DNA from: a virus
IMG/VR virus record: IMGVR_UViG_3300035698_011498
Coordinates: 1 to 27,735 of that record
DNA: 27,735 nucleotides
Strand: one strand, 5' to 3'
The notes beneath the pieces were generated by a model. The model was given only the letters and a program-made list of their open reading frames with translations, ran no database searches and had not been told where the DNA came from. How positions within the stretch are numbered: position 1 is the first letter of the stretch; each line of letters begins with the position of its first letter. Positions 4,068 through 26,329 of the stretch are shown here, piece by piece. The translations under genes and the position numbers were made by a program.

Positions 4068-4074
4068 ATATTAT

Positions 4075-4682: not shown

Positions 4683-4696
4683 GATTGTATTCCTTG

Positions 4697-4985: not shown

Positions 4986-4989
4986 AATT

Positions 4990-5376: not shown

Positions 5377-5385
5377 ATCTTTCTC

Positions 5386-6048: not shown

Positions 6049-6062
6049 AATATTCCTAAATT

Positions 6063-6138: not shown

Positions 6139-6139
6139 A

Positions 6140-7890: not shown

Positions 7891-7924
7891 ATCTTTTTTC
7901 TCTCTTTTCTCATTTTGTATAGCT

Positions 7925-7953
7925 ATTATAGCAAGCAAATCGGCATTTGTCAA
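7925..7953 (-). promoter_or_regulatory. Consensus sigma70 promoter
   Basis: Minus-strand TTGACA (7948-7953), 17-base spacer and TATAAT (7925-7930): all 12 consensus bases. It sits between the terminator at 7957-7991 and the 71-aa gene, with a start point near 7918. This suggests early transcription by unmodified host RNA polymerase, running toward the GT, tRNA, tmRNA and lysin genes. Confidence 0.88.
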
Positions 7954-7956
7954 GCA

Positions 7957-7991
7957 CAAAAAAACCTCTAAGTACTTGATTTCCTTAGAGG
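7957..7991 (-). terminator. Intrinsic terminator after PhoH
   Basis: An 8-bp stem CCTCTAAG/CTTAGAGG with an 11-base loop is followed on the minus strand by seven T. It lies downstream of PhoH and directly before the next promoter, closing the long unit that begins at 23742. Confidence 0.88.
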
Positions 7992-8003
7992 TCCTAAAAT
8001 AAT

Positions 8004-8033
8004 TGTAAGTACTTGATTTACTTACAGTTTTTT
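8004..8033. terminator. Second hairpin with the same loop sequence
   Basis: Stem TGTAAGT/ACTTACA (8004-8010, 8020-8026), followed on the plus strand by GTTTTTT. It shares TAAGTACTTGATTT-N-CTTA with the terminator hairpin about 35 bases away, with a compensating C-G to G-C change at the flanking pair. It reads better as a plus-strand terminator, though no plus-strand gene leads into it; on the minus strand it would be a tandem hairpin after PhoH. Confidence 0.55.
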
Positions 8034-8044
8034 ATTGAGTTAAA

Positions 8045-8794
8045 TCAGACACTTATGCCGTAGTCATCCTCATATTGCATTCTAGCTAGGATATACTCCT
8101 TGACTAGCTCGGATCTGACAATATCATTAGGTCCAAACTCAACGGAACAGAATGATGGCATGGCCTCAGTGGTAAGCATAAACTGCCGCATGCCTGACAT
8201 ATCGTAGCGTTTTGACAAGTCTGTTTGTCGGAAGTCTCCGCAAAAAATGATCTTTGTATTAACGCCTACTCTAGTCATGATACTATTGAGTTCCATATCG
8301 TTCAAGTTCTGACACTCGTCAACGATAACTACTGCATGGTCTAACGTAATGCCTCTCACATACGATGTACACATAAACTCTACATATTTTTGCTCTACTA
8401 ATCTTTGGTAAGGCTTGTCTTTTCCTGGGAAAAATTCCTCACACATTGATTGATAAGGCGCACTGTATACTTCTGTTTTCTCCTCCTCGCTTCCTGGTAA
8501 GTGTCCAATGTCTCTACTTGGTACTGCTGATCGTACAATAACTACTTTACCGTAACCGTTTTGTTTGTCTAACACTTCTTCAAGCGCACGATATAAGGCA
8601 ATAAAAGTCTTTCCCGTTCCTGCACAGCCATGCAACAAAAAGGCCGGATTATGTCGATACTGGGACATAAACTGGCCTTGGTTTTCTGTTTTTGCTGATA
8701 CAGTAATCATGTCATCAAGTGTCACCTTGAGACTATTAGAAGGGCGTCTTTCATTTTTTTCGTTTTGTACTAGTTGGAGATTCTTCTTTGGCAT
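8045..8794 (-). CDS. phoH: PhoH-like P-loop ATPase
   Basis: PhoH family protein: Walker A in FLLHGCAGTGKTFIALYRAL (Lys62-Thr63), Walker B in AVVIVDECQNLND, and downstream VGVNTKIIFCGDFRQTDLS, a sensor region typical of PhoH and superfamily 1-like ATPases. At 249 aa it is the short phage form without the N-terminal PIN nuclease. PhoH is a common marine phage gene; proposed roles include RNA metabolism and phosphate stress, but its phage function is unsettled. An AGGA site lies 8 bases before the ATG. It is the last gene before the terminator at 7957-7991. Confidence 0.93.
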   Translation of the reverse strand: MPKKNLQLVQNEKNERRPSNSLKVTLDDMITVSAKTENQGQFMSQYRHNPAFLLHGCAGTGKTFIALYRALEEVLDKQNGYGKVVIVRSAVPSRDIGHLPGSEEEKTEVYSAPYQSMCEEFFPGKDKPYQRLVEQKYVEFMCTSYVRGITLDHAVVIVDECQNLNDMELNSIMTRVGVNTKIIFCGDFRQTDLSKRYDMSGMRQFMLTTEAMPSFCSVEFGPNDIVRSELVKEYILARMQYEDDYGISV

Positions 8795-9642: not shown

Positions 9643-11067
9643 TTAACTTACTACCTTGACTCCGTAAATATTCTCAAATTCTTTAGCATCGTGTAAATCA
9701 TTGACAATAGGTTTCCCTTTTATATTCAAGCTAGTGTTCAGTAGCATAGGACATTTTGTTTTCTTTTTCCATTTTGTCAACAACTGAAACAGTCCAGGAT
9801 GAGAATATTCTGTCACTGTTTGCACTCTACTCGTACCATCTTCATGCACAATTGCAGGAAATGCTTTCGGATTCTTACACCTAACAACAGATTGCATGTA
9901 CGGCGAAGAAAATCCTTTATTTACATTAAAATACTTGTCTACATCTGACTCTAGTATCACAGGTGCAAACGGCCTAAACTCCTGCCTCTGTTTAATAGCA
10001 TTTACTTTATCTTTCATCTCTTGTCCACGAGGATCAGCTAACAGACTACGATTACCTAAAGCTCTGGGACCAAACTCTGCTCTACCACTTGCAACTCCAA
10101 CTATACTACATTGTATCAGTTCTTCTAGTGCTTTGTCAACTGGATATTCACCTTGTATTTCTTCGCCTAAGAAAGCATTATCAAAATCTATCTTCTGTCG
10201 TGTATGTGCAAGAATCGCACCCAGAGAAGAGCCGGCGTCACCAGGATTTGGCATGATCCAGTGATTGTCGAAGTGCTGAGGAATAATTCTATTAGCAAGA
10301 CAGTTCAACGCACAACCACCCATGAAGACAAGATTATCTTCGCCTGTCATGTCTTTTGTCATTCTCAACAGGCTAGCAAAGTATCGCTCATACAGTTTCT
10401 GTGTAGCAGCAGCAACATCAAAGTAATCTGCTTCAGTGAGTTCTGGCTTCCACCAAGAGCATCCTCGATGAAAGTTTGTACTGTCGAGACAGATTCCTTT
10501 CATGTCGTTATAGAACCTGTCTGGATTGCCGTATGCTGACATGCCCATTAGAATGTACTCGTCTTCGTTCGGCTTGAGGCCTATACGAGCAGTCATAGCA
10601 GAATAGAAAAGACCCAATGACGATGGGTAGTTTGCAGTCCAAATTTTCTTAGTATTTTTCCATATCGATACTGTATTAAATTCACCTATTGCATCTATTA
10701 CAAGTGTGGCAGAAGACGCAAAGGGCGAAGTATAATATCCAGCAGCCATATGACTTTCATGATGATTGCCGTATTCTAGATGAATACCTCCTAGTCCATA
10801 TTTCTTCAAATACTTTTTAGGACTCAACCAAGCGTTAGGTTGTCCGGCATATATTTTACGCAGAGCCTTAGTGTATGGGTTCTCGTACCAAAATATAATT
10901 TCAGGTGTGCCATGCTCAAGTGCTGCTGCAATTAGGTCAGCATTCAAGTCTTTATCATTTTTTATGCCACTGTATCTTTCTGCATGTGAGGCGAACAGTA
11001 TTTTGTCGCCGCTCATTACCGTCAAAGATGCATCATGTGTAGCAGCAGCAATCCCCCATTTAATCAT
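9643..11067 (-). CDS. NodU/CmcH-family carbamoyltransferase
   Basis: 474-aa O-carbamoyltransferase of the NodU/CmcH/TobZ type, moving a carbamoyl group from carbamoyl phosphate (via carbamoyl-AMP) to a hydroxyl of a sugar or other product. N-terminal Kae1-like part: GIAAATHDASLTV, GNHHESHMAAGYY (metal-binding His region, about 101-112), LVIDAIGEF, EYILMGMSAYG, FMGGCALNCLANR. C-terminal part: GRAEFGPRALGNRSLLADPR and MLLNTSLNIKGKPIV, which shape the active site. Both domains are complete. It starts by overlapping the 34-aa ORF and follows the radical SAM array, so its target may be that pathway's product. Related genes occur in other marine phages. Confidence 0.93.
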   Translation of the reverse strand: MIKWGIAAATHDASLTVMSGDKILFASHAERYSGIKNDKDLNADLIAAALEHGTPEIIFWYENPYTKALRKIYAGQPNAWLSPKKYLKKYGLGGIHLEYGNHHESHMAAGYYTSPFASSATLVIDAIGEFNTVSIWKNTKKIWTANYPSSLGLFYSAMTARIGLKPNEDEYILMGMSAYGNPDRFYNDMKGICLDSTNFHRGCSWWKPELTEADYFDVAAATQKLYERYFASLLRMTKDMTGEDNLVFMGGCALNCLANRIIPQHFDNHWIMPNPGDAGSSLGAILAHTRQKIDFDNAFLGEEIQGEYPVDKALEELIQCSIVGVASGRAEFGPRALGNRSLLADPRGQEMKDKVNAIKQRQEFRPFAPVILESDVDKYFNVNKGFSSPYMQSVVRCKNPKAFPAIVHEDGTSRVQTVTEYSHPGLFQLLTKWKKKTKCPMLLNTSLNIKGKPIVNDLHDAKEFENIYGVKVVS

Positions 11068-11164
11068 ATATGAATGGATCTTCTTCTTTAAGTTTTTTTA
11101 TTTTTTTCTTTATTTCTCTTTTCTTTTTCCAGTCCTTATACCAATCTTTAATTTTGTTAATCAC
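11060..11164 (-). CDS. Small Lys-rich coupled ORF, 34 aa
   Basis: A GTG at 11164 overlaps the stop of the radical SAM gene (GTGATTAA) with AAGGA 9 bases upstream; the frame ends in a TAA overlapping the ATG of the carbamoyltransferase. The product is MINKIKDWYKDWKKKREIKK through KIKKLKEEDPFIYD: a basic amphipathic helix with a DPFIYD end. I recall small phage ORFs ending in DPFIY from marine T4-like genomes, but their role is unknown. A peptide substrate of the neighbouring enzymes cannot be excluded, though it lacks Cys, Thr, Ser and Gly. Confidence 0.6.
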   Translation of the reverse strand: MINKIKDWYKDWKKKREIKKKIKKLKEEDPFIYD

Positions 11165-12389
11165 TATAATTATTCCTTTTGATATTATCTTTAAACCATT
11201 CTTTTAGCACAGGGAAAAAATCATATAGTTTTTGATCTCGGTATTGATCTTGCCATTTTACAACTTTTAACGTATTATTAAATTCTGAAACACTATTATT
11301 TTCATCGTACTTATCTATATAAGGTTTGATGATACTTTTTGCTTGTTCATTTGCAGACTCTTCGAAACTTGTTTTTAGTACAGATAAAGGAACTGCATTT
11401 AATGAAAATTCACTCGGATGATCAACTGGAATATAAAAAACATGCAAATCATATGTATCCTCAATATAGGCTTCAAACCGCACACTTTGCTCTATAGTCA
11501 AATTTTGCATAGTACATGCTACTGAAATATGCATGTTGCTATTCTTCTTCAAATCAGCAAAGTAGTGTAGATTCTCTTTCATCTTACTCCATTTACTAGG
11601 CCAACGTATATAATCATATACTTCTTCCATGCCATCACAACTAATTTGTATGTCTATCTGTTTAAAGTGAGACCACAATTCTGTAAATCTTCTCAGGGTC
11701 GTATTTGTGCCGTTAGTAGAATATCTAAGAGTAATATTTTTAGCATTACCAGAATTTACTAACATTTGCAAAAATTCCAAATGTTCATTTATTATTATAA
11801 ACGGTTCTCCACCGAACATATAAATATCTTTCAACTCAGAAGAATTATTTTTTATAAAATCTAAAAATCTTGCGTCACTCAAAAACAGGGTTGTTTCGCC
11901 AGTGTCACTTGCAATTACATCTTTTCTTAGATGTTCTTTTCTATTTAAAGGATGTTCATCTTCTCTGCGCCATTCCTTTTCTATCATGCTACTTGCGTCT
12001 GGTGAACACATTCTGCAATTCAAATTACATCGATTTCCTATTGCAAGTGTCAAACTCTCTAGTTCAAAAGATTTTGTTGTATTTTTTTCTATAATTTTGT
12101 CAAAAGTTTCTGGAAATTGTTTAGCATGAACTGCTCTGAAACTGTTAGGCTCCATTCTCCAGCAACGGTTACAATGCTCATGTTGTACGCCATCCAACAA
12201 ATCCTGTTTTAAATTTATCCATTCCTTGCTATTTTGTTGAGTTTTTAAATCATCTAAATTTGTAAAATTTCCATCATCGTTTTTCATCTCACCAGAAGCA
12301 TTGCAGCATACTTTTACTGATCCATCGATGTAAACAGAATTCCAAGGATAGGTACAAACTGTGTTTTTATTGTCTATTAAATCACTCAT
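11157..12389 (-). CDS. Radical SAM protein 1, N-terminal twitch domain
   Basis: 410 aa from the ATG at 12389 (ATGA overlap with the oxygenase stop). The radical SAM motif is CNLNCRMC (Cys121, 125, 128) with GGEP at 193-196. N-terminal twitch/SPASM-like domain: Cys12 (VCTYPWNSVYIDG), Cys28-Cys29 (VKVCCN), Cys73 and Cys76 (CNRCWRMEPNSFRAV), which can hold one auxiliary Fe-S cluster. Such enzymes cleave S-adenosylmethionine to a 5'-deoxyadenosyl radical; the auxiliary cluster usually helps bind or oxidise the substrate. Having the Cys domain before the radical SAM core reverses the usual SPASM order and fits the family named twitch-domain radical SAM (N-twitch). The C-terminus has YRDQKLYDFFPVLKEW. 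Substrate unknown. CC subgroup, the most divergent member. Confidence 0.88.
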   Translation of the reverse strand: MSDLIDNKNTVCTYPWNSVYIDGSVKVCCNASGEMKNDDGNFTNLDDLKTQQNSKEWINLKQDLLDGVQHEHCNRCWRMEPNSFRAVHAKQFPETFDKIIEKNTTKSFELESLTLAIGNRCNLNCRMCSPDASSMIEKEWRREDEHPLNRKEHLRKDVIASDTGETTLFLSDARFLDFIKNNSSELKDIYMFGGEPFIIINEHLEFLQMLVNSGNAKNITLRYSTNGTNTTLRRFTELWSHFKQIDIQISCDGMEEVYDYIRWPSKWSKMKENLHYFADLKKNSNMHISVACTMQNLTIEQSVRFEAYIEDTYDLHVFYIPVDHPSEFSLNAVPLSVLKTSFEESANEQAKSIIKPYIDKYDENNSVSEFNNTLKVVKWQDQYRDQKLYDFFPVLKEWFKDNIKRNNYSD

Positions 12390-12988
12390 GACAGCATCTT
12401 CATCCAAAACGCAGTTATTCTATCTTCATCTTCAGTTGGCCCTATACTATGATACATTTCCTCATGATTAAAATAAAAAATTCCTGATCCTTTTTTGGTT
12501 GGAATATTATAATCGCCCTGATTAGTGTGGATAACTGTAGAACTAATATGATCTTGCAAATTCATGATAAGAGTCCATTTAGTATTTCTGTTGTCTAGGT
12601 GAACGCCCATATGAAATCCTTTCGAATCTCTTTTCAAATCAAACTGTACAATACTTTCTTGTAAAAGCTCCTTTTCAGACCAAGTATCTATTGGCCAAGA
12701 AGCTTCAAGTCCTCTTGCAGGATAATTTTCCTTTATGTTTAAAATAATTTTTTTAAGAATATCACTAATATCTTTAAAAATTATACTATCTTCGTTATCG
12801 TGTAAAAATGCTATTTTTCTCTTTGAAAAATTTTCAGTGTTGGTAAGAACATTTTTTCCTAACATATTTTCCCAGTTCACAGTCTCATAGTCGTGATCAG
12901 GAATATATACTTCTTCAAAAAACCAACAAGGCAATTCTCTGTCTGGATCTAATGTATCTATATGTTCAAATGGTTTAGTTATTTTCAT
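12386..12988 (-). CDS. 2OG-Fe(II) oxygenase-like protein
   Basis: 200-aa protein with a double-stranded beta-helix oxygenase signature: His130-Leu-Asp132 (GVHLDNR), a distal His180 (EEMYHSIGP) and Arg190 ten residues later (EDRITAFWMKML). This HxD...H...R pattern holds iron and binds the 2-oxoglutarate carboxylate. Between them lie KWTLIMNLQDH and GSGIFYFN, typical strands. Family members hydroxylate, desaturate or otherwise oxidise C-H bonds. It overlaps both radical SAM neighbours (14 bases with protein 2, ATGA with protein 1), so it is probably made with them and may oxidise the same substrate. Identification is by motif only. Confidence 0.75.
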   Translation of the reverse strand: MKITKPFEHIDTLDPDRELPCWFFEEVYIPDHDYETVNWENMLGKNVLTNTENFSKRKIAFLHDNEDSIIFKDISDILKKIILNIKENYPARGLEASWPIDTWSEKELLQESIVQFDLKRDSKGFHMGVHLDNRNTKWTLIMNLQDHISSTVIHTNQGDYNIPTKKGSGIFYFNHEEMYHSIGPTEDEDRITAFWMKMLS

Positions 12989-14180
12989 ATATTATTTTGC
13001 TCCACTCAGGAAAAACCGAAGAAAAAGTTTCATTTCGATACTCATCTTTTTGTTTTGTGTAACTCAAAAACTCGCTCCAGTGACCTCTTGTACTAATATT
13101 TCCTTGCATGAAATTTAAAACTCTTTTTAAATTATCCTTTGAGGATGTACTAACACTACACTCATGATATTTATAACTAATTTCTTGTTTTACATTTTCA
13201 TGTATGTTTTTAATATTATAATAAGGAGGTCCATGCAAGAAATTAACATAGTAATACATACCTATGGAATCTAAATAATTAAAAATTTCTGGTAAATAAT
13301 ATATGTTCAAGTTATTCACTGTGACGCAAACCGCTACATCAATATTTGTCGTGTTTTTTGCTAACTCATAAAATTTTTGTATGTTAGTAGAAACTTCTTC
13401 CCATATCCCTCCACTTCTTTCATATTCAAATCGTTTTCCTATATCGTCTATAGACAAACTTATCAAAACTTTTTTATATTGTTTTAATATTCCAATATGC
13501 TCTGGTAGAAAAAAAGTTCCATTAGTATTGAAGTGTAGGACTTGATCTTTTGCATATTCCAAATCAATACCTTTCTGTAGCAGCTTCCAATTCTTTTTAA
13601 CCATAAAAGGCTCGCCGCCATAAAAATCTACTTGTTTCAGAGACGATATTCCTTTTTCAATATTATCCCACACCGGACTGGACTCTTTCCAGTTTCCTTG
13701 ATAATACTTAATATCTTTCATGTATTCTTTAAAGCCTTCTTTTGTTTTATCATGGTGAAAGAGATCAAAATGCTCTTTAACCCACCTACTACTAGACCAT
13801 GGTCCGCAAATTCTACACTTTAAATTACATTCAGTTCCTAGATTTAACTCGACAATCACTGGCTCAACTATTTTATCGTTTAAAAAATCTTCCCCCCAGT
13901 AATCTATGGCCCTGTCGTTATCAAGTATTCTTTTACTAGGCAATCCAGCATCTTCTTCTTCCCAACACTTTTTACAATTGTCGTGTCGAACTCCGTTGTC
14001 TAGAGCAAATCTTACTTCATCTGCTATCTTACCATTCAATGCTTGATTGAAACCTTGGTGCTCTATATTTGATTTTTTGCCATCTGCATCGTCTAGCCAA
14101 AGCTCACTTTTACAGCAAAACATAACATCGCCACTATTAGTATATCTCAACGACTTATATGTATTGATACAAAATGTCAT
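12975..14180 (-). CDS. Radical SAM protein 2, N-terminal twitch domain
   Basis: 401 aa. Radical SAM motif CNLKCRIC (Cys118, 122, 125) preceded by ELNLGTE, and YGGEP (187-191) for SAM binding. N-terminal Cys set: Cys4 (MTFCINTYKSLRYTNSGDV), Cys22-Cys23 (MFCCKSE), Cys69 and Cys72 (CKKCWEEEDAGLPSKR). C-terminal motif YRNETFSSVFPEW. The protein starts almost directly at its first Cys, a compact N-terminus. The ATG overlaps the stop of protein 3 (ATGA) and its end overlaps the oxygenase. CC subgroup. Central residues (LISLSIDD, DVAVCVTVNNLNIYYLPE) follow the usual barrel strands of the group. Confidence 0.9.
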   Translation of the reverse strand: MTFCINTYKSLRYTNSGDVMFCCKSELWLDDADGKKSNIEHQGFNQALNGKIADEVRFALDNGVRHDNCKKCWEEEDAGLPSKRILDNDRAIDYWGEDFLNDKIVEPVIVELNLGTECNLKCRICGPWSSSRWVKEHFDLFHHDKTKEGFKEYMKDIKYYQGNWKESSPVWDNIEKGISSLKQVDFYGGEPFMVKKNWKLLQKGIDLEYAKDQVLHFNTNGTFFLPEHIGILKQYKKVLISLSIDDIGKRFEYERSGGIWEEVSTNIQKFYELAKNTTNIDVAVCVTVNNLNIYYLPEIFNYLDSIGMYYYVNFLHGPPYYNIKNIHENVKQEISYKYHECSVSTSSKDNLKRVLNFMQGNISTRGHWSEFLSYTKQKDEYRNETFSSVFPEWSKIIYENN

Positions 14181-15502
14181 AAGATTTTATACCTTTCTAC
14201 TACACTTGCCAACCAGGGAACAGCAGATTTTGCTTTCTCCAGATCAAATAAATTATCTTTTATGAATAGATCAAATTCAGCAGTAGGCTCATCATCTATT
14301 TTTTCTTCAATTACTTTCCACTGCTCTTTAGCACATGAGTAATTTTCGGTAACTTTTTTGACACTTACGTTATTTTTTGTAAGCTGTATCTTTTCTTTTA
14401 GTTCTTTCTTTGCAAATTTTGGCAAATTACTAAGCTGAAATGAATCGCCATATGCGTAGTTTATTATAATATCACTTAATCCTCCAACATCAAGAAAATT
14501 ATTTTCATCCAAAAATTGAAAAAAATCTGTAACATAGTATGCATTATAGGGGCTAAGAGTAAAGCATATAATTATTTCAATTTTTTTTGTTAAGTTTTCG
14601 TTTTTCAGTTTTAACAATTTTCTAAGATTAGAAAAAACAACGTCATGTTTTGTTCTGTCTCTAACATATTCTAATAAATCGCCATGTCCATCTATACTAC
14701 ATAGTACTTTTACCGAATTAAAATTTTTCCAGATATCTAAAAAATTTGTTTTTTTCCAGCTCAATGTTGTCATGTTGGTACTGTAGATTATACCCTTATC
14801 ATACATTTTATTTTCATGTAAATAAGTTAGTATATCATAGTGTTCTTGGTGCATTAAGGGCTCGCCGCCGGCAAAATAAAACAGCTCACAATCTTCTATA
14901 TAAGGAAGAACATCTACTTCCATAAACTCAGGACGAGCATATGCAAAAGAAGTAATAGTACCCTGTTTGGATAATACATTTTTTTCTATACGCTCTTGGT
15001 GCATAATTTCTTTTTCTTTTGGAGGCAAATTATTTGCCAATGTACTACTCAGTTGATGTCCACATGTTCTACACCCAAGATTACATAAATTACTGAAACG
15101 AAAGTCCATGTATAACATTTTTGGGTTTTTTATGTATCCATCTTCGTCAGTATCACCAATAAATCTATCAATATGTTTAGAGAAATTATCATTTAAACTT
15201 TGCCTGAAGCTTGTCATTCCATAATCTTCTTGAGTATAACAAGACGAGCATTGTGGTACTCTTTTTCCTTCAAGTAAATCTAGGCGAATTTTTTTTAAGT
15301 TTTTACTGTTGATAATTTCTTGAAAAGAATTCTGTGAAAAGTCTCCGACTTCTCCCATGTTCTCGCCGCCATTAGCTACACAACAAAGCATGGCTTTGCC
15401 ATCTGGCCAAGCATGTAAATGCATCCAAGGCATCACACAAAATGTAGAGGATAGTTCTAATTTATCAGAGATTGGTGCAGCGTCTTTCTTAATTTGGCTC
15501 AT
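14177..15502 (-). CDS. Radical SAM protein 3, N-terminal twitch domain
   Basis: 441 aa. Radical SAM motif CNLGCRTC (Cys140, 144, 147) after MDFRFSNL; AGGEPLMHQEHYDIL holds the GGEP motif. N-terminal domain is the clearest SPASM-like one in the set: FCVMPWMHLHAWPDGKAMLC (Cys22, Cys40) then Cys41, MGEVGDF, a KIRLDLLEGK helix and CSSCYTQEDYGMTSFR (Cys85, Cys88). IKVLCSID-like strand (VKVLCSIDGHGDLLEYVRD) follows. Unlike the others its C-terminus lacks the RRN...FPE motif. ATGA overlaps join it to protein 4 upstream and protein 2 downstream. CC subgroup, closest in pattern to protein 4 (shared FSNLCNL and AGGEPL). Substrate unknown. Confidence 0.9.
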   Translation of the reverse strand: MSQIKKDAAPISDKLELSSTFCVMPWMHLHAWPDGKAMLCCVANGGENMGEVGDFSQNSFQEIINSKNLKKIRLDLLEGKRVPQCSSCYTQEDYGMTSFRQSLNDNFSKHIDRFIGDTDEDGYIKNPKMLYMDFRFSNLCNLGCRTCGHQLSSTLANNLPPKEKEIMHQERIEKNVLSKQGTITSFAYARPEFMEVDVLPYIEDCELFYFAGGEPLMHQEHYDILTYLHENKMYDKGIIYSTNMTTLSWKKTNFLDIWKNFNSVKVLCSIDGHGDLLEYVRDRTKHDVVFSNLRKLLKLKNENLTKKIEIIICFTLSPYNAYYVTDFFQFLDENNFLDVGGLSDIIINYAYGDSFQLSNLPKFAKKELKEKIQLTKNNVSVKKVTENYSCAKEQWKVIEEKIDDEPTAEFDLFIKDNLFDLEKAKSAVPWLASVVERYKIL

Positions 15503-16761
15503 AAGTTTGTTACTTCTATTAAACTATTGTTAATCTTTTTCCACCAATCTGCATATTCTGGAAAAGTATTCGAAAAACACTGATTTCTTCTTTCATCAAT
15601 TTTGTTTGTTTCGTGAACAAACTTGGCAATATCATCCGATGATGCATTATTATCTATATAAGAAATGATGCTGTAAAAACTTTCAATTATATCTTCTCTT
15701 GCATTTTGTTCTTTTAACCAGTCACAATGCAATGTTACCTTTTCTTTTATTTCATCTTTCAATTTATCAGATAAATTTCGAATTTCATAATAACTAGGAC
15801 CCAAAAGCATGTTTAGTACTACAGCATTTACATCTGGTACATATTTATTTTCAACAAAATACCTGTGCATATCTGTCAGTGAGTGTACATTCATGATACT
15901 AACTGTAGGTGCAATATGAATATTTATATGTCTATATTCTTGTATTGTGTCTGCTAGTGTTTTTAGATTTTTTTCTATTACAGACCACTTAACTCCATTT
16001 CTAATAAACTCTGCTCGTTCTCCCATTGCATCGATACTTGCACCTAAAACAACATTTCTAAACTGCTTCCAATATTCGACTAAATCATGTCTATTATAAT
16101 TCAACTTGGTCATGTTTGTATTATACAAAAGTTTTACTTTGTGCGCTCTGCCGCTATCAATTATTTTTTGAAGTGTTCTAAAATGTTCCGGCATAATAAG
16201 AGGCTCGCCGCCGGCAAAATATATCTTATCTACATTTTTGTATTGATTTTCCAAAGGATCCGGAGCTCCTTCTGGGATGCTTTTAAGCTCAGTGTAGTCT
16301 GAATGTCCAGTAAATTTTAGCTCTTCTTGTGCCCAAGTGGTACTGTAAACGCTTCCACATGACCTACATTTTAAATTACAAAGATTACTAAATCTTATAT
16401 CCCAACTTTTAATTATTGGTTCTAAGTATCCGTCTTCTGCCATACTTGCAACAATTTCATCTTCTACATCAAGATAATCTAAGTTATTACCATTTCTTGC
16501 ACTGACAAATCCATTATCTTCTCTACTATAACATGCGCTACAGAAATCAGGTCGTCTTACACCATTTGCCAGATCAAGCCTGAGCTGTTTCATTTTATCA
16601 GAATTGAAAAGTTCTTCAAGTGTGTTGTCTTTTAGAAATCCTAATTGTGTTGTTCTGTCTGCATTCCAACCGATACAACAAGGAAATACATCTCCTTCTG
16701 TGTTGAGATGAGTATGCACGAAAGGAAGAATACAAAAAGAATCTGAGTCTTTACTTATCAT
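15499..16761 (-). CDS. Radical SAM protein 4, N-terminal twitch domain
   Basis: 420 aa. Radical SAM motif CNLKCRSC (Cys128, 132, 135) after SWDIRFSNL; AGGEPLIMPEHFRTL follows. N-terminal Cys: Cys10 (FCILPFVHTHLNTEGDVFPC), Cys28-Cys29, Cys74 and Cys77 (CSACYSREDNGFVSAR). The C-terminal motif is IDERRNQCFSNTFPEYADWW. ATGA overlaps link it to the SDR upstream and protein 3 downstream, so the SDR and four CC-type radical SAM genes form one translationally coupled run. The strand VVLGASIDAMGERAEFIRNG corresponds to the substrate-side barrel strand. Substrate unknown. Confidence 0.9.
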   Translation of the reverse strand: MISKDSDSFCILPFVHTHLNTEGDVFPCCIGWNADRTTQLGFLKDNTLEELFNSDKMKQLRLDLANGVRRPDFCSACYSREDNGFVSARNGNNLDYLDVEDEIVASMAEDGYLEPIIKSWDIRFSNLCNLKCRSCGSVYSTTWAQEELKFTGHSDYTELKSIPEGAPDPLENQYKNVDKIYFAGGEPLIMPEHFRTLQKIIDSGRAHKVKLLYNTNMTKLNYNRHDLVEYWKQFRNVVLGASIDAMGERAEFIRNGVKWSVIEKNLKTLADTIQEYRHINIHIAPTVSIMNVHSLTDMHRYFVENKYVPDVNAVVLNMLLGPSYYEIRNLSDKLKDEIKEKVTLHCDWLKEQNAREDIIESFYSIISYIDNNASSDDIAKFVHETNKIDERRNQCFSNTFPEYADWWKKINNSLIEVTNL

Positions 16762-17447
16762 ACATCATGCTCATTGGCTATTTGATATTTGCCATCATTT
16801 TTAAAATAAGTAGGAATTGCAGACGGAGGATAGAATTCTATGATTTTTCCACTATCAAACCTTTTCAGATTTACCGCTCTGTTATATAAACTATTCATAA
16901 CTGTTTCTGCTTGAGATTCATCTTCATAAGGAATGTGAGGAGCAAAAATAGAAACAATTGCATTTTTATCATTAAATTCCGATAGCGATCTTCCAAGTTG
17001 ATTCATGACTCCTTTAGTACCGAAATATCCTGCAAGATCCAAATAATTGTCTCTATTTATTAAATAGGAAGCAGAAGAAGTCATAAAAACTATACCTGAA
17101 TTTTCACTCATATATTTCAAAGCCTCGACCGAAAACATGTGTGGCATAGCCGCATTAATCATTATTGCTGTATGCCATTCTTCAAATTTTACTTTATGTC
17201 CAGAAATATATTCAGAAGGATTTCCGGGATAAAATCCTCCGATACAATTGTATAGTAATAGGTCTATTTGCCCCTTATCTTCTAAAAATTCAGAAAATTC
17301 TTTTTGTATTGTTTCTGGATCACTTAACTTCGGCACAATTCTATATGAGAATTTGTGTACTGTATGACCATCTTCGGTTGCTTTGTTGCTGAAGTAAGAT
17401 CCAAATCTTTTTGGATCTTTTCCTGGTCCTATGATAACAATGTTCAT
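16758..17447 (-). CDS. Short-chain dehydrogenase/reductase
   Basis: Classical SDR-like protein of 229 aa: N-terminal beta-alpha-beta MNIVIIGPGKDPKRFGSYFS with a modified Gly-rich loop, DLLLYNCIGGF (the NNAG-like region), IMINAAMPHMFSVEAL, the catalytic Ser in VFMTSSASY (about 124-127) and Tyr141-x3-Lys145 (YFGTKG). It would reduce or oxidise a carbonyl/hydroxyl with NAD(P). The cofactor loop is unlike the textbook TGxxxGxG, so cofactor preference is unclear. It starts on the stop of radical SAM 5 (TAATG) and overlaps radical SAM 4 (ATGA), which ties it to that pathway. Confidence 0.85.
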   Translation of the reverse strand: MNIVIIGPGKDPKRFGSYFSNKATEDGHTVHKFSYRIVPKLSDPETIQKEFSEFLEDKGQIDLLLYNCIGGFYPGNPSEYISGHKVKFEEWHTAIMINAAMPHMFSVEALKYMSENSGIVFMTSSASYLINRDNYLDLAGYFGTKGVMNQLGRSLSEFNDKNAIVSIFAPHIPYEDESQAETVMNSLYNRAVNLKRFDSGKIIEFYPPSAIPTYFKNDGKYQIANEHDV

Positions 17448-18841
17448 TATGACTCCTTACACATATTATAGAAGTTTCTGAGTTCTGGAAAAGCTGCGTG
17501 AAAGTCTGTGCCACGTCTCCTATCATGTTCGTCTACAAATTTAGCAAAGTCTCTTCTATTTACTGCAAGCTCTTCACCCTCATAGCGATTTTGTTTTACC
17601 CAATCTAATACACGAGTTAGTTTCTTGTGTTCTACCGAAGAAAACATTCGTATATCATTATCGTCTACCCTTTCTTTCAAGTAGTTACAAGTATACTCAA
17701 GACGATCAACCATCCAATCATCTGCAATACGAGCAGTAAGATGCGGAGGCTCAACTGTATACGGAGTGTCGAAATTTACTCGCTGATAGCTATCATCCAC
17801 ATTGTATTTTTCTCTGAATTCTAACACTTTATCTAGAAACTCAGTGAAGTTTGGTATCGCAAGCAAACAGAATGTAACCATAAAGCTGAAATACTTTGAT
17901 TCAGAGTTCTCCATATAGTAATGGAGATTGCTTTCGTATTTTTCAATTTCTAGACCGTTGCGAATCCACTCTGCTTGTTTGCCCCAACTATCTACACTTG
18001 TAAACAGTGAGTAACCTTTAATTTTTTTATTTACAGTTAAATCGTTTGCTGTTTGAATAAACCGAATAATATTTCTTTCAGGTATCATCATATTACTATT
18101 TACTGCAAACTCCAAGTCTGGCTTAGGATTGGCTCCAACATAATCTAACACTTTAAATACATTAGGACTCAGCAAAGGCTCGCCGCCGGTAAATCTTAGT
18201 GTGTGTAGATGTGGATAAGCATCAGGAAACCATTCCCAGAAAATCTTGATGTATGGATTCGTGTCTTCTTCGCCGTAAATAGATCCTTCATTTTCAAAAC
18301 TTTCGTTATCATATTGTCTCACATTAATATGATTTTCTAATGGCCAGTTTCCCCATTTCTTAGTTTCTTGTAGCCAACTAGAACTTGCCATAGGAGCACA
18401 ATAGCTACATTTTAACTGACAGCGATTGCTGAAGTTTAGTTCTAGATACCTAGGATAGACATCTGCTTGCCAATCGATATCCTTAGTCTCTTGTAAGAGA
18501 GGTAATGACCAAGGCTCAGATGAGCGAAGCATCCTGTCTGAAATTTGATCTTCGCCTAGGTCTTCTACATTCCAGCAGTAAGAGCATTCATCAGGTCTGC
18601 CGCCTTCAAGCATTTCTTTTCGAACTTGTTTCTTGAATGGACTATTGTGTAACACATGAGAGTCTTCTTTTGCTAACTCTAAAGGAATCTTATGTGGTGA
18701 TGGATGATAACAACTATGATTTTGTCCAGTATGTAAATGCATACTGACATGATACCATTTCGCCATACAGAAGCCTTTGCCCACTGTATTCAATTCATCT
18801 GTTACATCTTTTAAATCTATTATATTGTACGAATGTGCCAT
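17447..18841 (-). CDS. Radical SAM protein 5, N-terminal twitch domain (HPSPHKIP type)
   Basis: 464 aa. Radical SAM motif CQLKCSYC (Cys141, 145, 148) preceded by YLELNFSNR; FTGGEPLLSPNVFK contains GGEP. N-terminal domain differs from proteins 1-4: Cys25 in FCMAKWYHVSMHLHTGQNHS, a single Cys44 followed by YHPSPHKIPLEL in place of the CC pair, then Cys86 and Cys89 (CSYCWNVEDLGEDQISDR). The strand LFTSVDSWGKQAEWIRNGLE follows. C-terminal motif is DRRRGTDFHAAFPELRNFY. It begins 3 bases after the 345-aa gene and couples to the SDR. A close pattern match to proteins 6 and 7 implies duplication. Substrate unknown. Confidence 0.9.
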   Translation of the reverse strand: MAHSYNIIDLKDVTDELNTVGKGFCMAKWYHVSMHLHTGQNHSCYHPSPHKIPLELAKEDSHVLHNSPFKKQVRKEMLEGGRPDECSYCWNVEDLGEDQISDRMLRSSEPWSLPLLQETKDIDWQADVYPRYLELNFSNRCQLKCSYCAPMASSSWLQETKKWGNWPLENHINVRQYDNESFENEGSIYGEEDTNPYIKIFWEWFPDAYPHLHTLRFTGGEPLLSPNVFKVLDYVGANPKPDLEFAVNSNMMIPERNIIRFIQTANDLTVNKKIKGYSLFTSVDSWGKQAEWIRNGLEIEKYESNLHYYMENSESKYFSFMVTFCLLAIPNFTEFLDKVLEFREKYNVDDSYQRVNFDTPYTVEPPHLTARIADDWMVDRLEYTCNYLKERVDDNDIRMFSSVEHKKLTRVLDWVKQNRYEGEELAVNRRDFAKFVDEHDRRRGTDFHAAFPELRNFYNMCKES

Positions 18842-18844
18842 TTT

Positions 18845-19882
18845 TTATCTCGGAAACAGTGGGCTAAGAAATTCAATTTCATTTTCTACATAATCTGGAT
18901 CAGTCCACTTATAATCCCAAACATATGAAGAAACTAAATTGTCGTTTTCGTAACATGCTAAACTATATATATTTAATCTTTTTGCAATTTCAGCGGCAAG
19001 CTCGCTGTCACTACTAAAGGAGTTTTCCAGCTTTGCAACAACTAGCCAGCCAATTCCTTGTTTGTTGCCGTCAGGATCAACATAGTAACAAAAATCATCA
19101 TGCTCTTCTAAAACAACATCTCTAGCTTGAAGCCATTTTTTCAACTCAGTTTTTCTTATACGGTTAGATGCATCTGACATCGACTGACTCCACCATATAT
19201 TAAACTCGCCTGACATATATCGAAGTGCATTTATGTTGTTGTTAAAAACATAATCATCGTTGTCTTCAAATGCTTCGATAGGAGTTTTTCCAGTTTGTGC
19301 GTAGTGAAGAAACACATCGCCAAAATTTCGTTGTAATGAAAAATTATCATAATAGTCTTCACTAAATAATTCACGAACAGGATTTAAATAACTTCCTATA
19401 GTCATTCCTTGATTTGTAATAGCAGTTTTTCTACTTGCAAGTTCATGTACTAAGTTGTTTAGTTGACGAATATGATACGAGGTAGTATCATCTGACAATT
19501 TCATATACTTCGCAACATCCCAAACTTGGCCCATTAAAACTTCAAAATGATGATGTAATTGATTAAGCGCATCTTCACTCGTAATATCTTCCCAGTTTTT
19601 ATCTATTCGATATCCGTTCCACACTTCAGTATTATTGTCAGCGAAGTTGTTGATACCGTCTACGCAAGCATCTAGCTTATCTGCAAGATATTCTACTGTG
19701 CGATTTGGGTCAGGCCATCCTAGCCAACAAAAGTTTTTTTCTAAACGAGGATTATTTTTTAGTGATTCTGATGCGAAGTTGAACCAATCGTTCCCAATAT
19801 CTGTATCACTAACATTAAATTTAATGTCTAGAGTGTCTGATTCGTCTATGGGATTCTGTAAGGTCAGTATCACATGTTTCAT
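18845..19882 (-). CDS. Unknown 345-aa protein inside the radical SAM array
   Basis: Soluble acidic protein with no signal peptide, membrane segment or recognised catalytic motif. N-terminal beta region (MKHVILTLQNPIDESDTLDI), then a mainly helical centre with a His-rich helix (LNQLHHHFEVLMGQVWDVA), HIRQLNNLVHELASRK, and a C-terminal part with Trp/Tyr-rich strands (DDFCYYVDPDG, SSYVWDYKWTDPDYVE). It starts on the stop of radical SAM 6 (TAATG) and ends 3 bases before radical SAM 5. It could be a partner, scaffold or substrate of the array, which the sequence cannot decide. I do not recognise the family. Confidence 0.8.
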   Translation of the reverse strand: MKHVILTLQNPIDESDTLDIKFNVSDTDIGNDWFNFASESLKNNPRLEKNFCWLGWPDPNRTVEYLADKLDACVDGINNFADNNTEVWNGYRIDKNWEDITSEDALNQLHHHFEVLMGQVWDVAKYMKLSDDTTSYHIRQLNNLVHELASRKTAITNQGMTIGSYLNPVRELFSEDYYDNFSLQRNFGDVFLHYAQTGKTPIEAFEDNDDYVFNNNINALRYMSGEFNIWWSQSMSDASNRIRKTELKKWLQARDVVLEEHDDFCYYVDPDGNKQGIGWLVVAKLENSFSSDSELAAEIAKRLNIYSLACYENDNLVSSYVWDYKWTDPDYVENEIEFLSPLFPR

Positions 19883-21312
19883 TATAAAATATCCTTTAAC
19901 TGTATCAACCTATCATCGTCTAAGAAAACTGTATTGTCACCTGAATGCAGTTCGCTTTTCTTATAACCACTATTTATAGTACTATACCAGTCAGTAAATA
20001 TTTCAGGAAACACATTAATGTCTTTGTTTCTTCGTTCGTCATATTGTGTGTAGAAAGATTTCATGTCCTGCCAGAGCGTCTCTCTGTTGCTTGCTTTTCT
20101 GTGCGGCGTTTCATCTGTTGCAAGATAGTCAATTAATCTTTCAATGCTTGCAAGCTCAAAATCAAGCCATTGAGTCTTTGTACGATTTTCTTCGAACCAC
20201 AAAACAAGGTCTTGTCTGCAATATTCTCGTATATCTTTAGGCATGGTGAGTATGTTTTGAAAGCTAGGAAAGCGAAGTATGTTTACACTAACAACAGGAT
20301 GATGTCCAGACTTACTATGCTTCTTCATCTCATATACTTCATCTAAAAACTCAGTAGTACTAAACAAAGATAGACCTGTAATAGTCATCATGATGTTCAA
20401 ACTATTATATTTGCCCTCTTTGGCAAATCTTAACATGTTGTTGTGCCAGACTCCCCAAACAAATCCATCTCGCAAATATTCTTGGTGTACGCCAAAACAT
20501 TCTGCGCTCGTATACAACTCAAAGTTTTTTACACGATGCGATTTTTCTATTAGTCTGTCTATGATTTCATCTTTTGCAATTAGATTGCTGTTGATTGAAA
20601 ACCGCATGTCACTGTCTTGCTCTTCAAACCAATCGAAAAGTTTCCATGTATTTCCTGACATAAGGGGTTCGCCGCCTGTCACACGCAACTCTTCTAGGCT
20701 ATCTGAAAGTCCATTGGCCCACCATTTCCAGAATGCTTCGATATATGGATTTTCTTCATCTCTTCCGTATGGTTCAGTCCAAGAACCATCTTGCTCAAAT
20801 GCACCTGCGCCATCTGATAGTAGATTCTGATAGGGGCCATTCTTTTTTATATCTCTTGCCCAGGTAGTAGAGAAAGAAGGATTACAGTATGAGCAAGCAA
20901 GATTGCATGTTCTATCAAATGCGATTTCAAAAGTTTTCAGATCAACACTGTCTTCCCAACTCTTGTCGTATGCTTCTTGTAAGTCTTTCTCGCTGTAAAT
21001 CTGTGACTTGAACACACGGTCTGATATAGCGTCTTTACCCATGTCTTCGATGCGCCAACAGTACTCACACTCAAGTGGCCGTTCGCCTTCTTGCATCATC
21101 TTGCGAGTAGCTTTCTTGTGCTTCGTGTTGTGTATCGCAGTATAGTCATCAAGCAGCTCAACCAGAGGAATCTTATGTGCGGTTGGGTGATGACAAGAAG
21201 CAGTCGTGCCACTGCCCAACCAAGTCGTAGCATTGTACCACTTAGCACCACAAAACGAAGGTGACTTTGAGTCAAGAACTTTCTTACGGTAGTCTATTAG
21301 AGCTTTACTCAA
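19882..21312 (-). CDS. Radical SAM protein 6, N-terminal twitch domain (HPTAHKIP type)
   Basis: 476 aa. Radical SAM motif CNLACSYC (Cys136, 140, 143) after FEIAFDRT; VTGGEPLMSGNTWK holds GGEP. N-terminal Cys: Cys21 (FCGAKWYNATTWLGSG), Cys40 with HHPTAHKIPL, Cys82 and Cys85 (CEYCWRIEDMGKDAISDR). C-terminal motif YDERRNKDINVFPEIFTDWY, then an extra tail of about 30 residues (YKKSELHSGDNTVFLDDDRL). The start must be TTG at 21312, because a stop lies three codons upstream and the next Met is beyond residue 70. It overlaps the stop of protein 7. Substrate unknown. Confidence 0.9.
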   Translation of the reverse strand: MSKALIDYRKKVLDSKSPSFCGAKWYNATTWLGSGTTASCHHPTAHKIPLVELLDDYTAIHNTKHKKATRKMMQEGERPLECEYCWRIEDMGKDAISDRVFKSQIYSEKDLQEAYDKSWEDSVDLKTFEIAFDRTCNLACSYCNPSFSTTWARDIKKNGPYQNLLSDGAGAFEQDGSWTEPYGRDEENPYIEAFWKWWANGLSDSLEELRVTGGEPLMSGNTWKLFDWFEEQDSDMRFSINSNLIAKDEIIDRLIEKSHRVKNFELYTSAECFGVHQEYLRDGFVWGVWHNNMLRFAKEGKYNSLNIMMTITGLSLFSTTEFLDEVYEMKKHSKSGHHPVVSVNILRFPSFQNILTMPKDIREYCRQDLVLWFEENRTKTQWLDFELASIERLIDYLATDETPHRKASNRETLWQDMKSFYTQYDERRNKDINVFPEIFTDWYSTINSGYKKSELHSGDNTVFLDDDRLIQLKDIL

Positions 21313-22759
21313 TTTCTTTCACCGTTATAAAATCAGAATTATCATCTGCCCACATCAAATAGAGCATTTCGTATTCAGGAAAGACTTCACAGAAATTTTT
21401 ATTTCTTCTTTTATCATACTCTTGTATAAACTGAACGAAATTTCTTCTATATTTCGGGCCTGAAGATTGGTCAGCCTTTAAATAATCACAGAATCTTTTT
21501 ATTTGATTAATTTCTTCACGATAAAACATTACGTTATAGTCAACTCCCTCTTTATAACCGTGAGTGTGAATTGACTTGTCCCATTGCATAGCATAATCTA
21601 AAATTTCATTCGCATACTTTTCTCGTATAGTATAGGGTAGCAACGTAACCTGAAGGTGAGGAGGAAATCTCATATAATTAAAACTGATAGGAGTTCTATG
21701 CGAAAAATTTGAACTGTCATATTTTTTTCTAAACTCTATCATATCTTTCAAAAAATCAACGAATCTAGGAAGACTTAATATATTGATGGTTGTCATAATA
21801 ACAACTCTACACTCAGTCTCATCTAAAACTCGTGTTACATTACTTTTCCATAAATCATAGTCCATGCCGTCTCTGGCATACTCAATTTGTTCACCATGAG
21901 ATTCACAGCTAGTGTAAATTTGACATTCTTTACAACACTCATCTAGTTTTTTAGCATATCTAATTAGCTTATCAATCAGTTCTTTTGGAGTTCCTAAGTT
22001 TGTGTTGATAGAAATTTCCAAATCTTTTATAGGATTTTCTATGATGTAATCCAAAGTTTTCCAAAAATCTTTACTCATTGTAGGTTCTCCGCCTGTTATA
22101 CGAAAAACTTTCAGATGAGGTAGAGCTTCTGGAAACCATTTATTAAATGCTTCAACATATGGATTGTATTCATTGTGTTTATACGGGTACTGTTCTCGTT
22201 TTTTTAAATCTTCTAAGTCGTGACTACCAAACTGTACAGGATATGGTCCATTTTTCTTGATATCTTTCATCCAGGTAGAACTAACATCAGGAGAACAATA
22301 AGCACATGCAAAATTACAAGCATTAGAAAAGCTGACTTCAAGATATGATGGAAATACGTCAACAGCTGGATCAGATTTCGCTATTTCATTAAATCTAGGC
22401 CAGGCCCAGGTATCAGCAGTTTTTGTGTGTCTGTCTGATAGGTGATTTTCTCCTAGGTCTTCAATATTCCAGCAATAACCACATTCTTCTGGGCGCTCTC
22501 CTTTAAGCATCTTTGACCGCTGCTCTTTCTTAAATTTACTATTATGCAACGCAGCTGGATTTTCTAAAACTTCTTCTACAGGAATTTTGTGAGGGGACGG
22601 ATGGTGACAAGAATGATTATAACCAGTCTGTAAATATAGAGTAGTCTGTAGCCATTTTGCAGAACAAAAAGATGGGCTAACTTCAGACATTCTGTCTTTT
22701 CTTATCTCAAAGACTTTGACTCTATCTAAATTTCTCCATCCTATATTACTGGTTTTCAT
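21305..22759 (-). CDS. Radical SAM protein 7, N-terminal twitch domain (HPSPHKIP type)
   Basis: 484 aa, the longest of the set. Radical SAM motif CNFACAYC (Cys148, 152, 155) after YLEVSFSNA; ITGGEPTMSKDFWK holds GGEP. N-terminal Cys: Cys32 (FCSAKWLQTTLYLQTGYNHS), Cys51 with HHPSPHKIP, Cys93 and Cys96 (CGYCWNIEDLGENHLSDR). Extra Cys in LDECCKECQIYTSCESHG lie in the barrel region. C-terminal motif YDKRRNKNFCEVFPEYEMLY. The ATG is 2 bases after the methyltransferase-like gene stop; an in-frame ATG at residue 24 would still keep all Cys. First of the radical SAM genes on the transcript. Substrate unknown. Confidence 0.9.
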   Translation of the reverse strand: MKTSNIGWRNLDRVKVFEIRKDRMSEVSPSFCSAKWLQTTLYLQTGYNHSCHHPSPHKIPVEEVLENPAALHNSKFKKEQRSKMLKGERPEECGYCWNIEDLGENHLSDRHTKTADTWAWPRFNEIAKSDPAVDVFPSYLEVSFSNACNFACAYCSPDVSSTWMKDIKKNGPYPVQFGSHDLEDLKKREQYPYKHNEYNPYVEAFNKWFPEALPHLKVFRITGGEPTMSKDFWKTLDYIIENPIKDLEISINTNLGTPKELIDKLIRYAKKLDECCKECQIYTSCESHGEQIEYARDGMDYDLWKSNVTRVLDETECRVVIMTTINILSLPRFVDFLKDMIEFRKKYDSSNFSHRTPISFNYMRFPPHLQVTLLPYTIREKYANEILDYAMQWDKSIHTHGYKEGVDYNVMFYREEINQIKRFCDYLKADQSSGPKYRRNFVQFIQEYDKRRNKNFCEVFPEYEMLYLMWADDNSDFITVKEIE

Positions 22760-22761
22760 TA

Positions 22762-23370
22762 TTATTTTATACCGATAGCCATGAATCTATAAAAAGGAGA
22801 ACCATCTGGTCTCATTCCGCAGTTTAGTGTTTCTTTCACTGTTGCGCTTTCTAGATAGTTAATAGTAATAAATTCTTCAAGTGTGTCAGTGCATCTTACA
22901 TGTTCATCTGTTTCGAAAAAGTTATTGCCCTGTACAATGTATTTAGTACCAGTAGGAATCTTTTCCCACCAGGCAGCGTACACATCTTGAGAAACATGTT
23001 CGGTGCTTGTATTGATTACCATGTCCAAAAAAACAGAATCGCTGTAATCATACTCAGACATACATCCATGTTTAAATACAATATTTTTACTAGTATTAAT
23101 TTTATTGAACACTTCTTCACATGAAGGGTCATTATCAACGCTTATGTATTTGCCATCAAATTGTTGTTGCAAGAGTTGTGCAAGAACGCCGTACCAACCA
23201 CCAAAGATGACAATATCACCCATGTTGCCACGCCAGTATGCTTCTTTTATTAGGTTGTCAATTATCCACTTTTTGCTTTGTAATTGACTTGGCCAGAAGC
23301 AATCTAGAAGTCTAGGATTTTCTCGTATCTCATACATCCAGCTAGATACTAGATCAAAATCTATTTTCAC
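22762..23370 (-). CDS. Class I SAM-dependent methyltransferase-like protein
   Basis: 202 aa with a Rossmann-type methyltransferase outline: motif I-like MGDIVIFGGWYGVLAQLL (about 50-67), acidic end of beta 2 in YISVDNDPSCEEVF (Asp79), VFKHGCMSEYDYSDS, and VFLDMVINTSTEHVSQDVYA as the motif IV region. The Gly loop is GGWYG rather than GxGxG, so it is a divergent member; SAM binding is likely but the reaction is unknown. The start is GTG at 23370, overlapping the TGA of the upstream gene (GTGA). It leads the radical SAM array, being separated from radical SAM 7 by only 2 bases. Confidence 0.7.
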   Translation of the reverse strand: MKIDFDLVSSWMYEIRENPRLLDCFWPSQLQSKKWIIDNLIKEAYWRGNMGDIVIFGGWYGVLAQLLQQQFDGKYISVDNDPSCEEVFNKINTSKNIVFKHGCMSEYDYSDSVFLDMVINTSTEHVSQDVYAAWWEKIPTGTKYIVQGNNFFETDEHVRCTDTLEEFITINYLESATVKETLNCGMRPDGSPFYRFMAIGIK

Positions 23371-23681
23371 GAACCACGCCTCATGTTTGCGATGTCTTTC
23401 GCTTCTTGATCATTAATGATAGGAACAGCGTTGCTCTTGTGCATCGTTGCAATGCCTTTGACAAGTGTACCAGTGTATGACACACGAGTAGGCTTAGAAC
23501 ATGACTCAGCAGAGGCTGCTGTAGTCACACTGGGGTAGTTGGGAGTCTCTCTTATATATGCCGTTTGCTTAGGCACATATGTCTCAAACTTAGGCTTGGC
23601 AGGCTTCTTAGCAGGAAGCTTAGTGCGCTTGCGACCATTGGTAGTGTAGTTAAGGGAGTTGCCGAGATTGAGATAATACAT
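23367..23681 (-). CDS. Conserved-looking small basic protein, 104 aa, unknown
   Basis: Begins MYYLNLGNSLNYTTNGRKRT, followed by a Lys/Pro-rich stretch (KLPAKKPAKPKF), and ends with TGTLVKGIATMHKSNAVPII and a short AKDIANMRRGS tail. I recall the MHKSNAVPI pattern from marine T4-like phages as a hypothetical family; no function is known. It is probably disordered and basic in its first half. It is the first gene after the promoter at 23714-23742, with AAGGTG before the ATG, and its stop overlaps the methyltransferase-like gene start. Confidence 0.75.
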   Translation of the reverse strand: MYYLNLGNSLNYTTNGRKRTKLPAKKPAKPKFETYVPKQTAYIRETPNYPSVTTAASAESCSKPTRVSYTGTLVKGIATMHKSNAVPIINDQEAKDIANMRRGS

Positions 23682-26300: not shown

Positions 26301-26329
26301 ACTATAACATATCTAAAGGAGATTGTCAA
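26301..26329 (-). promoter_or_regulatory. Sigma70-type promoter for the small accessory genes
   Basis: Minus-strand TTGACA (26324-26329), 17-base spacer and TATAGT (26301-26306), 35 bases ahead of the 137-aa gene. Its -35 box coincides with the start codon region of the divergent endonuclease gene. Confidence 0.75.

Follow-up and report, generated by a model that had tools for sequence, protein, structure and literature searches.

Why would a virus gather seven radical SAM enzymes of one family in a single operon, and on what would they act? The question is raised by the 27,735-base IMG/VR virus record IMGVR_UViG_3300035698_011498, the whole of which was analysed and which we will call the window. 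Its seven radical SAM ORFs all lie on the minus strand and span positions 11157-22759. The best reading of our results is that they belong to a unit, 9643-23681, which marine T4-like viruses carry optionally as a decoration cassette of the host-recognition type. The window also carries the T4-like replication genes gp32, gp59 and PhoH, and its gp32 is 55-57% identical to that of marine T4-like phages (Synechococcus, Prochlorococcus, Pelagibacter and Methylophilales).

All seven proteins are N-twitch radical SAM enzymes, which score 264-378 bits (E 1e-78 to 5e-113) with the NCBIfam family NF033640 (N_Twi_rSAM), for a curated cut-off of 170 bits. We named them in their order on the minus strand. 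R1 (21305..22759, 484 aa, 334 bits) is of the CHHPxPHKIP subfamily, and its partner R2 (19882..21312, 476 aa, TTG start) scores 286 bits. They are followed by R3 (17447..18841, 464 aa, 299 bits), of a CHHP-type subfamily, then by R4 (15499..16761, 420 aa), which at 378 bits is the top of the seven, R5 (14177..15502, 441 aa, 309 bits), R6 (12975..14180, 401 aa, 292 bits) and R7 (11157..12407, 416 aa, TTG start, 264 bits). A preliminary description of this DNA had seen here seven full-length proteins with CxxxCxxC, GGEP and four N-terminal Cys, and this holds: both motifs and the N-terminal four-Cys domain (twitch/SPASM-like) are invariant across the alignment of the seven, and the frames, free of internal stops, were found again by a Pfam search of the genome itself. 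The proteins thus share with NF033640 a full-length score above cut-off and the joining of an N-terminal four-Cys domain to a radical SAM core. The family is, however, defined by sequence and has no assigned reaction, whereas the window presents seven old paralogues in one viral operon. In the literature searched, no reaction is assigned to any N_Twi_rSAM enzyme, and we found no functional study of radical SAM enzymes with a carbamoyltransferase in phages, or of N-terminal twitch domains.

The SPASM/twitch maturases, such as SkfB and PapB, likewise combine a radical SAM core with an auxiliary Cys domain, but that domain is C-terminal in the maturases and N-terminal in R1-R7. Furthermore, the scores of R1-R7 with the known SPASM peptide maturase equivalogs lie far under the cut-offs (at best 46 bits against 340, for PapB, the others being lower), and the viral loci are devoid of precursor or RRE. 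The AF2 model of R1 (pLDDT 91.5) has as its best PDB match the peptide maturase SkfB, at a TM of 0.33/0.41, followed by BlsE and the viperins (nucleotide and sugar-nucleotide enzymes). Since the best TM is this low, the radical SAM core alone is recognised, and the fold does not designate a substrate for R1; the PDB comparison returned no solved enzyme close to it. This distance from any solved enzyme, the nearest being a peptide maturase, counts against a glycoconjugate substrate.

The fold similarity to viperins, together with weak viperin-family scores, would favour a modification of nucleic acids or nucleotides, be it DNA hypermodification, tRNA modification or the production of viperin-like nucleotide analogues. 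But the scores of R1-R7 with the viperin family NF038283 are of 18-39 bits for a cut-off of 180, no nucleotide kinase, DNA glycosylation or queuosine-type gene is recognised in the cassette, and in relatives the array sits with fibre and glycosyltransferase (GT)-like genes. We regard this explanation as very improbable.

Read along the minus strand, the unit (23681 down to 9643) consists of p104, MT, R1, R2, U345, R3, SDR, R4, R5, R6, 2OG, R7 and CARB. It had been described as a phage operon with near-continuous gene overlaps, and indeed the junctions from MT to R7 consist of eight overlaps (8, 1, 1, 4, 4, 4, 14 and 22 nt) and two gaps of 2 and 3 nt. The borders first given to it, 11157-23370, enclose the array properly but are too narrow as limits of the unit, which are best drawn somewhat wider, at 9643-23681, to include p104, which overlaps MT by 4 nt, and a carbamoyltransferase 89 nt after R7, whose downstream position had already been noticed. 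The GC content is 31-36% over most of 11-20 kb and about 40% in the flanks, which is compatible with an acquired block. Other candidate members fared less well. A glycosyltransferase (6140-7237) and an epimerase (3204-4067) of the next block are not seen in the sister cassettes presented below, so that their membership lacks support, and the 34-aa frame at 11060-11164 is a Lys-rich ORF whose status as a gene finds no support either. No glycosyltransferase was recognised inside 9643-23681; the unit thus shows no recognised sugar-transfer genes of its own, such as an O-antigen or LPS cluster would have, and it is only in relatives that GT-like genes adjoin the array.

That further genes stand among the radical SAM genes is borne out: they encode a 2OG-oxygenase-like protein, an SDR, a methyltransferase-like protein and the orphan of 345 aa, and the support differs in degree from one partner to the next. 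The first gene, p104 (23367..23681), encodes a small conserved phage protein (PHROG 27048, E 6e-24), and in L008, L009, L012 and L014 it likewise precedes MT, either immediately or with one gene in between. MT itself (22762..23370, 202 aa, GTG start) has no Pfam family, but a profile built from 13 homologues matches solved SAM methyltransferases, the best being 3dtn at E 8e-4, so that its sequence points to a putative class I SAM methyltransferase-like protein. It immediately precedes R1 in five other loci (L008, L014, L028, L030 and L062) as well as in two bacterial ones. The SDR-family oxidoreductase (16758..17447, 229 aa) matches PF13561 at E 2e-6, with 28.2 bits for a cut-off of 27; it has the YxxxK motif, and its gene is common to all five arrays of the window type and to L012. 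The 2OG-Fe(II)-oxygenase-like protein (12386..12988, 200 aa) matches no Pfam family, and is recognised by an H-x-D...H...R signature in which H130-x-D132 and H180 (the facial triad) and R190 (the 2OG-binding Arg) are invariant in six homologues. Finally, CARB (9643..11067), the last gene, encodes a NolO/NodU-like carbamoyltransferase with both domains above the Pfam cut-off (PF16861, E 1e-52; PF02543, E 3e-33), and it comes immediately after the array in L009, L010, L028 and L289.

The orphan U345 (18845..19882, 345 aa) represents a conserved phage family to which no Pfam or NCBIfam family corresponds. Its AF2 model (pLDDT 81, pTM 0.82) has no fold match in the PDB (best E 0.61), and its nine viral matches at E<1e-3 in BFVD are all uncharacterised, so the fold gave no function. 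No match to U345 was found in cultured phages. An N_Twi radical SAM gene lies within 5 kb in 49 of 80 viral loci with a U345 homologue; the 31 others weaken the idea of a dedicated radical SAM partner.

How far is this gene set kept together in other viruses? The scans of viral contigs gave 51 relatives for R1, three loci for U345 and two for MT. The set is found nearly complete, and in nearly the same order, in four further viral contigs (L008, L009, L010 and L014), which all carry R1-R2-U345-R3-R4-R5-R6 with the SDR and 2OG genes, most of them adding MT and either R7 or CARB. At the protein level identity is 28-93%, and these sister cassettes therefore do not come from one population. Up to eight N_Twi_rSAM enzymes can be found in one such conserved unit. 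Among 50 viral loci with R1, 43 have R2 directly behind it; these loci were selected by R1 similarity, their genes were delimited by a simple longest-ORF rule, and several loci are near-identical, so that counts across loci are non-independent.

The paralogues of the window are old. In a tree of 166 proteins, R1 to R7 fall in different clades, most of which include Bdellovibrionota sequences; R5, R6 and R7 each have a clade of their own, that of R7 including a bacterial member. A recent tandem duplication is ruled out by this separation, and we are therefore dealing with old paralogues kept side by side. They are also under purifying selection. The dN/dS values against L013, for pairs with an estimable dS, are 0.07 for R1, 0.025 for R2, 0.016 for R3 and 0.12 for MT; as dS nears saturation for several genes, R3 among them, these values show purifying selection but do not give its exact strength. 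All motifs are present in 165 of 168 full-length viral homologues, which, with the dN/dS of about 0.02-0.12 in the closest pairs, rules out broken or decaying copies. The expected co-occurrence of the set is thus observed, and what was found is neither scattered singletons nor broken active sites, the two outcomes that the preliminary description had named as contrary to it, since the set is conserved and the sites are intact. This selection also bears on the possibility that these are passenger genes, selfish cassettes that move horizontally and do little for the phage. Their optional presence and the genes they share with Bdellovibrionota would fit such a behaviour, but the low dN/dS, the intact motifs and the conserved order already disfavour it, and we hold it to be the least probable of all the explanations considered.

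The place where relatives carry the array is what connects it to surface or virion genes. In about 40 further contigs, R1, with or without R2, lies directly behind tail collar or fibre proteins (PHROG tail families) and GT-like genes, and the preliminary link to surface or virion genes is thereby strengthened. In most contigs the upstream series is fixed: it opens with structural and fibre proteins, continues with a 115-aa protein and two GT8-like proteins, and ends with a 190-aa protein and C1, after which come R1-R2. None of the GT-like genes has a Pfam match, their assignment being made by sequence reading, and C1 in particular reads like a GT-A-like glycosyltransferase with a DxD-type motif. 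We examined the best 80 of at least 600 C1 matches. A radical SAM gene comes next in 24 of these 80 and within three genes downstream in 3 more (27 in total), 50 have none, and 3 end there. In the radical SAM-free loci, C1 is followed by a second C1 and then by a thyX-like gene on the opposite strand. With 50 modules empty and 27 filled among these best 80, the array is thus an optional cargo behind fibre and GT-like genes. The genes downstream of the array vary between relatives but are often of sugar type, and those that recur read as UDP-glucose-dehydrogenase-like, DegT aminotransferase-like, nucleotidyltransferase-like, cupin-like and SGNH-like. In L028, the array adjoins a curli operon. 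In the window and its nearest relatives, the neighbours of the array are instead CARB, PhoH and genes of replication: the window has it in a variable region on the replication side, flanked by the PhoH/gp32 block and by small ORFs, and not beside tail fibres. This remoteness from the fibres, and the lack of an established link to the window's own glycosyltransferase and epimerase, speak against a glycoconjugate.

As the relatives insert the cassette behind tail-fibre and sugar-transfer genes, the most likely target of its decoration is a surface structure. We propose that it performs the serial tailoring of a surface glycoconjugate, on the virion fibre or on the host envelope, a reading to which we give an even chance. 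Other genes would make or attach the scaffold, a glycan or a glycan on a fibre; in most relatives, this supply would fall to the GT8-like glycosyltransferases located upstream, between the tail-fibre genes and R1. Each N-twitch enzyme would then carry out one radical step on the scaffold, for example a C-H oxidation, an epimerisation, a dehydration or a cross-linking, while the methyltransferase, the 2OG oxygenase, the SDR and the carbamoyltransferase would add or adjust groups. The outcome would be an unusual and variable surface structure, borne either by the fibres of the virion or by the infected cell's envelope, and it may benefit adsorption or the exclusion of competing phages. The action of the enzymes in series on one scaffold, the identity of this scaffold as a glycoconjugate, each of the reactions and the benefit are what we infer.

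The same genes also exist in bacteria. When 85,000 species genomes were searched for R1/R3-type patterns, 78 loci were found. Of these, 58 are assigned to Bdellovibrionota, and several of the rest are contigs of phages that had ended up in genome bins. The NF033640 cut-off is passed in 20 of 78 Bdellovibrionota genomes versus 3 of 200 from Pseudomonadota (Fisher p 1e-9, centres included). These shared genes raised Bdellovibrionota as a possible host of the virus, but the tmRNA of the window is permuted and of the alphaproteobacterial type. Some N_Twi arrays are chromosomal, one (L103) lying beside obgE-like and lgt-like genes and another (L308) joining radical SAM genes to C1. The members of such arrays fall in the clades of the phage paralogues, and the MT-R1 and R3-U345 pairs recur in Bdellovibrionota loci too; however, the arrays are partly accompanied by PqqD, an S26-like peptidase, an ABC exporter and peptide-like genes, all of which the viral cassettes lack. 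PqqD proteins are found near N_Twi genes in 18 Bdellovibrionota loci, in genomes that carry just 1-3 PqqD genes, and in some loci precursor-like peptides or an S74 chaperone protein share a YxFGG (YxFGG/FGSLTPL) leader. The arrays thus partly adjoin what look like new peptide-modification loci, and these neighbours favour a polypeptide substrate over a glycoconjugate.

The main rival to a glycoconjugate is accordingly a protein substrate, in which the enzymes would introduce cross-links, epimers or hydroxylations into a phage protein without any sugar. The most plausible target would then be a protein of the tail fibre or of another fibre, and U345 would act as its chaperone or presenter. The domain make-up close to that of SPASM/twitch maturases, the match to SkfB, a RiPP maturase, the PqqD, precursor-like and S74 neighbours in Bdellovibrionota, and the viral arrays next to fibre genes, or to the curli operon, all argue for it. 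Against it, PqqD-like (RRE) proteins occur in the bacterial loci only, and leader-like peptides reach a significant score in Bdellovibrionota only, none of either being found in the viral loci searched; the overlapping ORFs leave no room for a precursor gene; and a carbamoyltransferase and GT-like genes would be unusual in a pure peptide pathway. A RiPP cluster in the phage is rejected on these negative searches, which also leave the small-peptide substrate suggested earlier unsupported; the modification of a phage protein seems possible though rather unlikely. A bolder version, that the seven enzymes form a radical assembly line which step by step rewrites a single fibre protein of the phage, or a glycan bound to the fibre, with a toolkit shared with Bdellovibrionota, appears more doubtful still.

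Parts of this picture have precedents. Two papers mention such genes without analysing them: for pelagimyophages, radical SAM cassettes within their host recognition cluster (Zaragoza-Solas 2020, PMC7029224), and for a T4-like virus, TARA_ERS488813_N000010, a total of 12 radical SAM genes (Nishimura 2017, PMC5332604). These viruses resemble the window as marine T4-like viruses with multiple radical SAM genes; the insertion place of our relatives matches the pelagimyophage cluster (PMC7029224), whereas the window array is in another variable region. For cyanophage S-SSM6a, a jumbo-phage review (PMC7824862) describes a cluster that combines carbamoyltransferases and 2OG oxygenases with a methylase, read as polysaccharide decoration or secondary metabolite. 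The window has a carbamoyltransferase, a 2OG oxygenase and a methyltransferase in one phage unit too, but radical SAM enzymes are unmentioned in PMC7824862, and no halogenase is seen in the window. This precedent, like the many types of tailoring enzymes within a single unit, could suggest that a diffusible secondary metabolite (a toxin, a signal or a cofactor) is made during infection. We consider this improbable, as no NRPS, PKS, terpene or amino-acid ligase scaffold enzyme is recognised in the window and the insertion site of the relatives goes with fibre and GT-like genes. Phage surface-decoration cassettes, the N_Twi family and T4-like viruses rich in radical SAM genes were already known, and the multi-paralogue radical cassette is a new form among them; the identity of its genes, the R1-R2 core pair, the paralogue structure, the empty site and the bacterial counterparts are worked out here.

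If the proposed decoration is true, a radical chemistry acting during infection on the fibres of the virion, or on the surface of the host, would constitute a new layer of phage-host recognition, and if a fibre protein or a fibre-bound glycan is what the assembly line rewrites, it would be a kind of virion post-translational modification without earlier description. With a conserved unit, purifying selection and a site mapped in relatives, the substrate of the N_Twi_rSAM enzymes is now testable by deletion. Among cultured phages, the matches to R1, R2 and R4 are distant only and come nearly all from Vibrio phages. Vibrio phage K566, which belongs to another lineage, has its N_Twi genes (two above the NF033640 cut-off and two below) interspersed among a pair of Glyco_transf_8 genes and one GT4-like gene. 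This interleaving sides with a glycoconjugate, as do the sister cassettes, the empty versus filled site and the sugar-type genes downstream, and K566, as a smaller version of the cassette, offers a route to experiments.

Five peptide-like ORFs found beside N-twitch radical SAM genes in Bdellovibrionota (L309, 5747-5998; L070, 19282-19539; L081, 19660-19836; L074, 14537-14704; L093, 7008-7178) share a YxFGG / FGSLTPL leader, and their ends are Gly- or Cys-rich, as in NSSYGGY. PqqD proteins adjoin the ORFs of L070, L081, L074 and L093, and we consider these leader-bearing ORFs a candidate new RiPP family. At L123 (11794-12246) and at 11 similar Bdellovibrionota loci, a leader of the same type is joined in one protein with an S74 endosialidase chaperone domain, and PqqD and N-twitch radical SAM genes lie nearby.

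In the viral contig L028, the stretch upstream of the genes for the methyltransferase-like protein and the first two radical SAM enzymes (1763-8410, plus strand) holds genes of curli type (CsgF, CsgG, curlin repeat) together with FecR and a protein that combines CHASE2 with an adenylate/guanylate cyclase. In three sister viruses, the gene for the 104-aa protein that opens the unit is flanked divergently by extremely Asn/Thr-rich secreted repeat proteins, all on the minus strand (L008, 4823-6100; L009, 192-1160; L014, 923-2140). The isolated Vibrio phage K566 carries a smaller N-twitch radical SAM array with GT8 and GT4-like genes (L142, 10042-21010), which a Gly/Ser/Tyr-rich fibre-like protein adjoins.

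The domain of the 345-aa orphan protein also occurs in fusions (L230, 3678-5927; L231, 3765-6065; L237, 3349-4968), either with an N-terminal domain of unassigned type, in proteins of 749-766 aa, or with a C-terminal one that, by reading, appears kinase-like.

As for the host, the window encodes a permuted tmRNA (4744-4989, minus strand; RF04321, 107 bits, the alpha_tmRNA model matching too) with the tag ANDEAFALAA; carried by a phage, such a permuted tmRNA is a hint that the host is an alphaproteobacterium. Elsewhere in the window, an ORF at 26323-27003 (plus strand) reads as a putative homing endonuclease of the GIY-YIG type, its C-terminus resembling a zinc finger.
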